Of a stretch of 52,647 nt of DNA, positions 10,761 to 52,647 are shown piece after piece (within the stretch, counting starts at the first letter, position 1; each line of letters starts with the position of its first letter). The notes under the pieces were generated by a model. That model was given only the letters and a program-made list of their open reading frames with translations. It was not told the DNA's origin and did not search any database. The stretch is from Flavobacteriales bacterium (GTDB lineage: Bacteria; Bacteroidota; Bacteroidia; Flavobacteriales_D; Sanyastnellaceae). A program made the translations under genes and the position numbers. Location of the stretch: positions 1-52,647 of the forward strand of contig CANNHA010000003.1 of the NCBI GenBank assembly GCA_947504275.1. Direction: 5' to 3'.

Positions 10761-11225
10761 TTATTCAATTTCCTTGAACAGATATTTGTCATTAAAATCA
10801 ATATCCAATTTTTGCAGTAACTCGATGAACTCATTTCTGAAGGTTTTTGTAGCGTGATGTTCTTCTTGATTATTCATATATGCAATAACATCATTCAATT
10901 GAGAATGAGAACAAGAGAAAGCTCCAAAACCCTCCTGCCATTCAAATCTGCCCATGACCAACCTCTTCTCGTTGATCCATTTTGAAGAATTGGACTTAAC
11001 CTCTCTCACCAAATCTGATAAAGCAATATTTGGTTTGATACTAAATAAAATATGAATATGGTCCGCTACTCCCCCAATGGCATAAACCTTTTGTTCCTTA
11101 CCCCGAGCTATTCCTGAAATATACATGTACAATTCATCTTTCCAATTTTTTTGAATTAGGCTTTGTCTTCCTTTCACTGAAAACACAACATGAATATAAA
11201 TCTGGGTATATGTATTTGCCATCAA
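10761..11225 (-). mobile_element. REP-associated tyrosine transposase (RAYT, IS200/IS605-like Y1 HUH)
   Basis: YTQIYIHVVFSVKGRQ, HUH motif VADHIHILF, FEWQEGFGAFSCSHSQLNDVIAYMNNQEEHHATKTFRNE containing the Y1 tyrosine helix. Confidence 0.92.
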
Positions 11226-49543: not shown

Positions 49544-50038
49544 TCACAACCACATTTGTGCATGCCAAGATTGCGCAAAAGGTTTGATGAGATTTTCTAC
49601 ATCACTGAATTGTGTAATGGTACTATCGACAATAAGGGTTTCATCATGCACCACATTGGCTTTGCGCAAAGCCCAAAACTGGCTCAATTTAGCCATTACC
49701 CATTCTTGATTCTCTGCCTGGTACATCACCCAATTTCGATCCAATAAATCGACATCCCAACCAGCAGATAAACCCTTTATCCAAGCCACACTTTTATCGA
49801 TACTGCAACCTGACACCCCCTCAAATTCATTCCCAGCAACAATCAAAATGCATCTATTCTCTATCAACCAAACATCAGCTGAATTGGCCTTTCCATGGGT
49901 GTTCCATTGCGAGAGAAAATCTCTCTTTGACTGATGAAAATAAGTCAACTCATCATCTAACAAAGGTCTAGGAACCCAATAAAACCAAAGTTTGGCGTTG
50001 CTAGGAAATTGCTCAGTTTCTTTCTGAATATTGATCAT
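49544..50038 (-). CDS. Conserved Bacteroidota protein often (mis)named 'ABC transporter ATPase'
   Basis: FPSNAKLWFYWVPRPLLDDELTYFHQSKRDFLSQWNTHGKANSADVWLIENRCILIVAGNEFEGVSGCSIDKSV; no Walker motifs. Confidence 0.65.
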   Translation of the reverse strand: MINIQKETEQFPSNAKLWFYWVPRPLLDDELTYFHQSKRDFLSQWNTHGKANSADVWLIENRCILIVAGNEFEGVSGCSIDKSVAWIKGLSAGWDVDLLDRNWVMYQAENQEWVMAKLSQFWALRKANVVHDETLIVDSTITQFSDVENLIKPFAQSWHAQMWL

Positions 50039-50549
50039 GCTGGAATAAATTGTATATAAAAAACAGGACAAAAAGGGACGGTGATTGAAGGATCATCCAC
50101 ACCTTCCTAGTGATGGCAAAGATGGCATCAGATGCTGTAACATGAGAAATAAAATACATCAACAAAACAAGGAACATCAATGCCAAATAATAGTAACCAA
50201 TCCACAGTCGACGGATAGACAAGGTAGAAAAACACAATGGAAGCATCATCCATTCGAGCAGGGCAAAGCACAAAGTGAAAAAAACAGGTATAACCCATTT
50301 CATGGTTGTCCAAAAAGACAAACTTTTTTCGTACATCCAATGAAAATCTGAATGGGTATGAAAAAAAGAAAAAGGCACATTTTGTTCGTCTTGCGTTTTG
50401 AATGATAATCGCTCTGAAAATGATAGTGATTCCCAGTCTGGATGTTCATTTCTGAGATGAATCTGGTAATTGCAATTGACTTTGCTCCAGTCATTGCACC
50501 AAATCAGGATGCATGAAAAAAGAACAAATATCAGGCGCCACCGGTTCAT
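50013..50549 (-). CDS. Exosortase-associated membrane protein (candidate XrtF/XrtX-associated type)
   Basis: Multi-TM; start codon overlaps the exosortase stop (ATGA). Confidence 0.6.
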   Translation of the reverse strand: MNRWRLIFVLFSCILIWCNDWSKVNCNYQIHLRNEHPDWESLSFSERLSFKTQDEQNVPFSFFHTHSDFHWMYEKSLSFWTTMKWVIPVFFTLCFALLEWMMLPLCFSTLSIRRLWIGYYYLALMFLVLLMYFISHVTASDAIFAITRKVWMILQSPSLFVLFFIYNLFQHDQYSERN

Positions 50550-51055
50550 TTCACACTCCACTTTTTAATGCCCAACCACCATAAAAAAATCACAAAACCG
50601 TAAACCACTATGGTAAAAGTGTAATCATGATTGAAAGCCAAAGATTGGGGGTAATATTTGGTAATGATGGCCAAACTTACGATTCTTATCACATTCACAC
50701 CTTCAATGGCCAGGATGAGCAGCGGTAGTGTTGCAAACTTCCAAAATTTATTAAGCGGTAGAAAAATCCAAACACTGAGAAATACCCAAACCACCATCCA
50801 GCCGTCACAGTTGGGAGAGACCCAAACGCCAACGCTATTCTCTATTTGAATCGTGTAGAAAAGTGATGTTAGGTGTGTTTTGGTAACAAATCCCAAATGC
50901 TGTATTACCCATTCAGAAGCCACTACCAGTAAATGGATAAGGTGCTCATCCATTTTTGTTTTGGGCAATAAAAAAGACTCGTAAAACACGAGTCCTATAA
51001 GATAAAATGCCAAAACGGAAAAAATGAACTTTAACAGATCATTGTTCCATCTCAT
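50546..51055 (-). CDS. Exosortase/archaeosortase-family membrane cysteine protease
   Basis: Multi-TM with C/R/H signature: SPNCDGWMVV, EGVNVIRIVSLAI, AFNHDYTFTIVVYGFVIFLWW. Confidence 0.8.
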   Translation of the reverse strand: MRWNNDLLKFIFSVLAFYLIGLVFYESFLLPKTKMDEHLIHLLVVASEWVIQHLGFVTKTHLTSLFYTIQIENSVGVWVSPNCDGWMVVWVFLSVWIFLPLNKFWKFATLPLLILAIEGVNVIRIVSLAIITKYYPQSLAFNHDYTFTIVVYGFVIFLWWLGIKKWSVK

Positions 51056-51261
51056 TTCTGTTGATTGCGTTTTTCTTTTAGCCATTTGGCACCACCCAAT
51101 GCAATACCCGATGCCAAGAGAATACCAACACCTCCGTCGATTGGAATAGGACATGGTCCAAACTCGCCGCCACAAGGAATCTCGCCGCCACCCGGATCTG
51201 GCAATGCAAATGCAACCGCCGACACAGTCAGAAATAGCAGAGTTAATAGTTTAATCTTCAT
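51052..51261 (-). CDS. Small protein with PID/PEP-CTERM-like C-terminal sorting signal (putative exosortase substrate)
   Basis: Signal peptide MKIKLLTLLFLTVSAVAFA, short Pro/Gly/Cys segment, PIDGG + TM (VGILLASGIALGGAKWL) + basic tail KEKRNQQK; ATGA overlap with exosortase. Confidence 0.8.
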   Translation of the reverse strand: MKIKLLTLLFLTVSAVAFALPDPGGGEIPCGGEFGPCPIPIDGGVGILLASGIALGGAKWLKEKRNQQK

Positions 51262-51390
51262 TTTTTTATGAACGTTGAATTTACAAATATAAGCAAGTCA
51301 CAAAATCCCACATCATTTGGTTGATATATTGTCACAGAATTCCAATGATTGAAGCAAATACTTTTGCATATTGCGGTATTATAAAAGAGA

Positions 51391-52647
51391 ATGAGCAAAG
51401 CAGGCAAATCTGGTTTTTTAGATGCTGAAGATTTAATACCAGTCATTAAATTTATCAACAAGAACTGGATTCTCATTCCCATTTTTTGCTCCGTTTCTTT
51501 TGTTATTGCTTACTTCTATAGCAATAGAATGCCTGATATATATGGTGCTCGAGCGGAAATCCTGTTAAAGTCCAACGAGACGTATAACTACCAGAGTAAA
51601 CTTTATTCCAATCTTGGATATTACTCTGTTATTCAAGATATCGCCAATCAAAAAAGGGTTATCGCATCCAAAGATTTAATCGGGCGCGTGATTGATAAGC
51701 TGAATTTTAACATTAGCTATTACATCGTTGGTCGTATAAAAACCGCTCAAGTTTCCAACTTTGGATCGATGAACATCATCTGCGATTGGAAAAATTTCAA
51801 TCCTCGCATGCGCAATATGGCTTTTTTTATCAAAGTCATTGATGAAACAAGATACCAGCTTTCATTTGATGCACGCGGCGTTAAGTTTTTCAAAGAATGC
51901 GAGTTTAATAAACCTGTTAAAGATGGACAGATCCAGCTTCAGGTAGATTTGGCCGAAGGAATCAATGCAGAAGAATTTGAGTTGATCAAAGAGCAGACAT
52001 ACAAATTTATAGTTCACACCCGTGACCAATTAATAAGTAAATACGCTTCCGCTGTTTCAGTAGCCAACAACAATTACTCCAGCATTCTAACCTTATCCAT
52101 CAATGACGGATTAGCCGAGAATGCGCAACAATTCTTGGACACCCTCACCAAAGAGTACATTCATCAGACGATAGAAAATCAAATTGAAATCAACGAAAAC
52201 ACCTTGCGTTTCATTGATAAACAAATCAGCCAAATGACCCACATTATTGATTCATTGGAGCTCATTCTTGACTCTTACTCAGATGACAATGAAGTTGTGG
52301 ATTTATCACAAAAAGAACAAAGTGCCTTCAATCAACTCTCCAAAGCGCAAGAAGCGCTGGCTGAAATTGAGATTCAGGTCAGCAGCATCGAAAAAATACA
52401 ATCCTCCTTTGGAGACATTAATTCATCGGATTTGATACCATCCGTATTTGCCAACACCTATGAGGATGGCAATCTCCAAAACATGATCACCAAAGTTCTA
52501 GAGTTAAAACAACGCAGACATAACTTTTTGATGGATGTAACACCGCAGGACTCCCGGATTGTTAGGATAGACAATGAATTGAACGGCTTAACCAAAAACA
52601 TTAATCAGCATATCTCTGATCTAAAGAAAATGTTATTGGTCAAAAAA
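51391..52647 (+). CDS. Wzc/chain-length-determinant-like polysaccharide co-polymerase (truncated at window end)
   Basis: Frame open from ATG 51391 to the edge: MSKAGKSGFLDAEDLIPVIKFINKNWILIPIFCSVSFVIAYFYSNRMPDIYGARAEILLKS...; coiled coil; absent from ORF track because it has no stop. Confidence 0.85.
   Translation, partial: MSKAGKSGFLDAEDLIPVIKFINKNWILIPIFCSVSFVIAYFYSNRMPDIYGARAEILLKSNETYNYQSKLYSNLGYYSVIQDIANQKRVIASKDLIGRVIDKLNFNISYYIVGRIKTAQVSNFGSMNIICDWKNFNPRMRNMAFFIKVIDETRYQLSFDARGVKFFKECEFNKPVKDGQIQLQVDLAEGINAEEFELIKEQTYKFIVHTRDQLISKYASAVSVANNNYSSILTLSINDGLAENAQQFLDTLTKEYIHQTIENQIEINENTLRFIDKQISQMTHIIDSLELILDSYSDDNEVVDLSQKEQSAFNQLSKAQEALAEIEIQVSSIEKIQSSFGDINSSDLIPSVFANTYEDGNLQNMITKVLELKQRRHNFLMDVTPQDSRIVRIDNELNGLTKNINQHISDLKKMLLVKK

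Follow-up and report, generated by a model that had tools for sequence, protein, structure and literature searches.

A divergent XrtX-type exosortase operon with one probable dedicated micro-substrate, encoded beside a Wzc-type exopolysaccharide gene

Exosortases are usually regarded as sorters of many surface proteins. In the XrtA/EpsH–PEP-CTERM systems of proteobacteria an exosortase is tied to chain-length and tyrosine-kinase polysaccharide genes, as in the XrtX systems considered here; unlike XrtX, these systems use a PEP motif, many substrates per genome and a different enzyme family. The archaeosortase ArtA has its catalytic superfamily and tripartite signal in common with XrtX, but its PGF-CTERM substrates are large, S-layer-type and attached to lipid, whereas XrtX substrates are tiny peptides. 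MYXO-CTERM signals are like those of XrtX substrates in carrying a Cys directly before the C-terminal hydrophobic helix; their enzyme, myxosortase, is a CPBP protease unrelated to XrtX, and a genome holds dozens of MYXO-CTERM substrates (PMC11980579). The best experimental analogue is the XrtF system of Flavobacterium johnsoniae (TIGR04128, TIGR04127; Fjoh_1448/1449), in which a small accessory membrane protein likewise comes after the exosortase and deletion of xrtF or of the accessory gene lowers sand colonisation and biofilm formation (PMC10936215). Closest of all is the curated set of XrtX, PID-CTERM and XrtX-associated protein (NF046081, NF046080 and NF046082). Our search of the literature on XrtX or PID-CTERM found no study and no XrtX experiment.

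The window, that is, the whole stretch of DNA analysed, is a complete contig (G000:C3; 52,647 bases); the assembly it belongs to has 2.47 Mb and is 85% complete. Three minus-strand genes (51261–50013), linked by two ATGA overlaps, encode a CTERM-type micro-substrate (gene 1), an exosortase (gene 2) and an accessory membrane protein (gene 3). An earlier note had described this module; its coordinates, frames, motifs and both overlaps all proved correct on re-reading the sequence, and matches to NCBIfam HMMs bear out the identification. Two neighbours that it did not mention, a fourth gene (49544–50038) and a divergent Wzc-type gene starting at 51391 (plus strand), are included here:

49544–50038, minus strand: fourth gene, 164 aa, overlapping gene 3 by 26 nt; a core gene, probably outside the system
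50013–50549, minus strand: gene 3, XrtX-associated membrane protein, 178 aa, about four long helices (NF046082 match; AF2 pLDDT 91.6)
50546–50549, minus strand: ATGA stop/start overlap from exosortase to accessory protein, read in the sequence; the same 4-nt overlap occurs in 44/67 relatives
50546–51055, minus strand: gene 2, XrtX-type exosortase, 169 aa (TIGR04178, NF046081, catalytic triad and tree)
51052–51055, minus strand: ATGA stop/start overlap from substrate to exosortase, read in the sequence
51052–51261, minus strand: gene 1, PID-CTERM micro-substrate, 69 aa (NF046080 28 bits, cut-off 26; sole match in its own genome)
51130–51144, minus strand: codons of the PIDGG sorting motif, residues 40–44; the NF046080 match starts at P40
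51151–51174, minus strand: Cys pair C30...C37 just before PIDGG, a pattern shared by relatives
51262–51390, no strand: 129-bp divergent intergenic region with one TAnnTTTG box facing each gene (0.11 expected, both strands)
51391–52647, plus strand: divergent Wzc-type polysaccharide co-polymerase/tyrosine autokinase (Pfam Wzz 31.1 bits)

Gene 2 scores 39.1 bits against TIGR04178, the signature of the exosortase/archaeosortase superfamily (curated cut-off 23). The Cys, Arg and His signatures previously read in it, NCDGW (C83, 50807–50809), NVIRI (R124, 50684–50686) and FNHDYTF (H143, 50627–50629), are present, and 17 aligned exosortase homologues all keep C83, D84, N121, R124, N142 and H143. The two checks on which the identification could have failed, matches to exosortase HMMs and conservation of these residues, thus both came out in its favour. 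The earlier note named XrtX- and XrtF-type families of Bacteroidota but left the family of gene 2 unassigned; by HMM score and tree it is XrtX-type. The best NCBIfam model is still NF046081 (XrtX; 108.6 bits, E=3e-31), even though the score is below its cut-off of 170, and the XrtF model TIGR04128 gives 47.6 bits, below its cut-off of 90. In a maximum-likelihood tree of 42 rows (36 XrtX-type, gene 2 included, and six XrtF), XrtF forms a separate clade, split from the XrtX-type rows at 100/100. Gene 2 and its three nearest relatives are set off by long inner branches inside the XrtX set, into which row L184, whose 183.2 bits exceed the XrtX cut-off, also falls. Score and placement together exclude XrtF as the family of gene 2. 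The two XrtF loci inspected (L185 and L186) have neither an adjacent PID-CTERM gene nor a Wzc neighbour, and a search of the XrtX profile against PDB sequences gave no match. An adjacent PID-CTERM substrate and an accessory protein also place gene 2 with XrtX. On these sequence features the system is XrtX-type, of a divergent lineage that by the curated cut-off rule formally stays outside.

The claim that gene 3 is a multi-transmembrane protein is supported by several long predicted helices and a confident AF2 model, whose fold found no significant match in the PDB. Its own match to NF046082 (assoc_w_XrtX) is weak (23.6 bits, E=3.4e-5, below the cut-off of 75). All 24 accessory homologues aligned with it match assoc_w_XrtX and no other NCBIfam model, and it is this alignment that ties gene 3, by sequence, to the XrtX-associated family.

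Gene 1 encodes MKIKLLTLLFLTVSAVAFALPDPGGGEIPCGGEFGPCPIPIDGGVGILLASGIALGGAKWLKEKRNQQK. By eye, residues 1–19 are a probable signal peptide, followed by a Gly/Pro-rich stretch holding two Cys (C30 and C37) ahead of PIDGG, a hydrophobic segment and the basic tail KWLKEKRNQQK. The proposed ending of PIDGG, transmembrane segment and basic tail is thereby upheld: NF046080, which models PIDGG, hydrophobic helix and basic tail, matches above its cut-off (E=1.4e-6). Among 68 distinct PID-CTERM substrates, 66 carry a Cys 1–4 residues ahead of the motif P and two lack this Cys. Exactly two Cys follow residue 20 in 47 of the 68, with a spacing of 8 in 26, 5 in 12, 7 in 6, 6 in 2 and 9 in 1. Typical forms are CGGPFGPACPIDGG and CWPPPCIPIDGG, and the gene 1 form is CGGEFGPCPIPIDGG. 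The pattern points either to a small loop where cleavage takes place or to lipid attachment of the kind proposed for MYXO-CTERM.

Together, these comparisons place the locus, on its sequence, among a known kind of system, all three of its families being already curated, as a divergent member. Components, order, triad and C-terminal signal are those of the curated XrtX set; the differences are the scores of gene 2 (108.6/170 bits) and gene 3 (23.6/75 bits) and the long-branched lineage. The resemblance of the operon exceeds chance (PID_CTERM E=1.4e-6, TIGR04178 39.1 bits, XrtX model E=3e-31). The analysis adds the single-substrate counts, the association with Wzc and the conservation of a Cys ahead of PIDGG.

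The enzyme and its substrate were also proposed to have their stoichiometry fixed by translational coupling. Across the family, the XrtX-to-accessory ATGA overlap is found in 44/67 loci, and of the 27 loci whose ATG start could be fixed, 17 have a substrate gene that overlaps XrtX by 4 or 1 nt; in other loci there are gaps, or the substrate gene lies at a distance. Overlaps of the ATGA type are frequent in bacteria. A fixed ratio is unsupported, because an enzyme, as a catalyst, needs no equimolar substrate, such overlaps are common and other loci have gaps. The overlaps do support, as a reading of the sequence, a single operon.

The proposal of one enzyme for one tiny substrate fared better. 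Across 299 genomes of the order, with a substrate counted as a PID-CTERM match over the cut-off, XrtX homologues occur in 135 and PID-CTERM proteins in 97, all but one of which (96) carry XrtX as well (Fisher p about 7e-45, uncorrected for relatedness). The two genes are adjacent and on the same strand in 87 of the PID-CTERM genomes. Exactly one PID-CTERM protein is found in 92/97, and five genomes have two over the cut-off. A scan of the source assembly for other PIDGG proteins returned gene 1 as the only match to the PID_CTERM model, with the reservation that an assembly 85% complete could be missing further substrates. The only other PIDGG-like DNA match in that genome (C21:500-513) was rejected, because by eye it closes a frame resembling a short-chain dehydrogenase and it gives no match to the PID_CTERM model. 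The extra copies inspected (L191–L194) are only 70–87 aa long, and second micro-PID-CTERM genes at L192:2119-2379 and L194:3029-3292 have no exosortase adjoining, their neighbours being a sugar-phosphate transferase-like and an aminotransferase-like gene. Some genomes with XrtX and no scored PID-CTERM (L017, L028 and L009) carry next to it a variant whose motif reads PIEDG, PISDG or PIDGD. In genus g7 (L012, L022, L030 and other loci) XrtX adjoins an S-adenosylhomocysteinase-like gene, without Wzc, and a PIDSG-type protein, the probable substrate, is encoded at another place, where a large protein immediately precedes it.

The Wzc-type gene runs off the contig end, so that only its N-terminal 419 aa are present; a complete homologue at L065 (806 aa, 56% identical) scores 170 bits against TIGR01007, over the cut-off. 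Among the 43 named loci where a micro-substrate adjoins and upstream sequence reaches 1.2 kb or more, 41 have a Wzc-type gene divergently beside the substrate, whereas it lies beside XrtX in 0/23 loci without an adjacent substrate, those 23 being largely one clade; these counts share ancestry and are not independent. Further orders of the class show the association too, with differing intervening genes, and in some of those loci a Wzm-like ABC permease gene follows Wzc. The link is kept while the intervening genes change. It is not obligatory, as genus g7 has XrtX without Wzc. In other families and orders, Wzc and the PID-CTERM gene are often separated, as at L179, L180, L182, L183, L184, L189 and L190, by a gene that is oriented like the exosortase operon and encodes a protein of ~900–1,700 aa whose C-terminus resembles a T9SS tail. 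In G169 and G100, second micro-substrates have as neighbours genes resembling a sugar-phosphate transferase and an aminotransferase (names by eye). In the window, the TAnnTTTG boxes, which we take to be Bacteroidota -7 elements, stand about 23 nt before each start codon.

The fourth gene was considered as a system component and rejected. Its relatives occur in 267/299 genomes of the order, whether or not these carry XrtX, and in families f3 and f9 the two genes are far apart. The fourth gene is thus a core gene and probably a bystander, co-linear with the module in the family of the source genome. The product has no significant match in Pfam or NCBIfam; its family has invariant FxxxWxxHG, GCxxD and W motifs, and its AF2 model is confident (pLDDT 93) but finds no significant fold match in the PDB. 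Elsewhere in the window, an open reading frame at 10761–11225 (minus strand) resembles, by eye, an IS200/REP-associated tyrosine transposase.

Module identity, one substrate per genome, Wzc synteny and the Cys beside PIDGG are read from sequence, and proteolytic processing of the C-terminal signal by gene 2 is predicted. We consider it likely that the locus is a divergent XrtX/PID-CTERM operon with one dedicated micro-substrate, transcribed away from a Wzc-type exopolysaccharide gene, and that it works as follows. The 69-aa precursor would be exported by Sec, presumably with cleavage of its signal peptide, and would stay anchored in the inner membrane through its C-terminal helix and basic tail. 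With the aid of the four-helix accessory protein, XrtX (C83/R124/H143) would cut at or near PIDGG, the exact site being a supposition, and would probably pass the new C-terminus to an acceptor. The product would be a peptide of ~25 residues with a Cys pair, which may form a disulfide or carry a lipid. The peptide would most likely reside at the cell envelope and help to assemble, export or anchor the polysaccharide that the neighbouring Wzc handles. Such an envelope-polysaccharide role is the most likely one by analogy, because of the Wzc link and the deletion phenotypes of XrtF.

Two alternatives concern the substrate and its chemistry. XrtX could carry out ordinary surface-protein sorting, anchoring several PID-CTERM proteins of which the 69-aa protein is merely one. 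That PEP-CTERM/XrtA systems sort many proteins is established, and the five genomes of the order with two matches over the cut-off would agree; the single PID-CTERM protein in 92/97 genomes and in the source assembly, and the likewise tiny extra copies of L191–L194, make this quite unlikely. Alternatively, by analogy with MYXO-CTERM and myxosortase, the Cys before PIDGG might be lipidated and the tail then trimmed by XrtX, leaving a C-terminally lipidated mini-lipoprotein. The position of the Cys in 66/68 substrates would suit this, as would the invariant Cys that MYXO-CTERM needs for cleavage (PMC11980579). Against it, 47/68 substrates have two Cys at spacings of 5–9, mostly 8, 5 or 7, which a disulfide loop fits at least equally well, two substrates lack the Cys, and myxosortase is an unrelated CPBP enzyme; we regard lipidation as doubtful though conceivable. 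Gene 1 itself is not a MYXO-CTERM protein, since its operon partner is an exosortase and not a CPBP protein.

The other two concern what the neighbourhood means. A mature length of about 25 aa, a dedicated processing enzyme and a Cys loop would also suit a peptide that is secreted as a signal and forms no part of the envelope; this is very unlikely, given that the recurring neighbour is Wzc and that the loci inspected have no recurrent receptor or regulator gene beside the module. It is also possible, though we think it unlikely, that the Wzc adjacency is inherited synteny of no functional meaning. Gene order does persist among related genomes, and the fourth gene hitch-hikes in the same way within family f1, but the Wzc link recurs in several families and in further orders of the class despite different intervening genes, Wzc is absent where no substrate adjoins (0/23 loci, largely one clade), and XrtA systems have chain-length and tyrosine-kinase families of their own (TIGR03007 and TIGR03018).

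A wider reading we put forward tentatively. XrtX may be a peptide-maturation system, not a general sorting system, that makes one Cys-loop peptide of ~25 residues as a working part (a linker, anchor or regulator) of a Wzc-dependent polysaccharide machine in Bacteroidota. The near-constant polysaccharide-export neighbour makes the function of the XrtX unit testable, and a branch widespread in Bacteroidota that seems to serve a single micro-peptide, with a Wzc neighbour and a conserved Cys ahead of the presumed cut site, offers a small, genetically clean test system for exosortase chemistry. The XrtX system could thus settle whether exosortases hydrolyse or transfer, what the acceptor is and how exosortases are linked to polysaccharide export.
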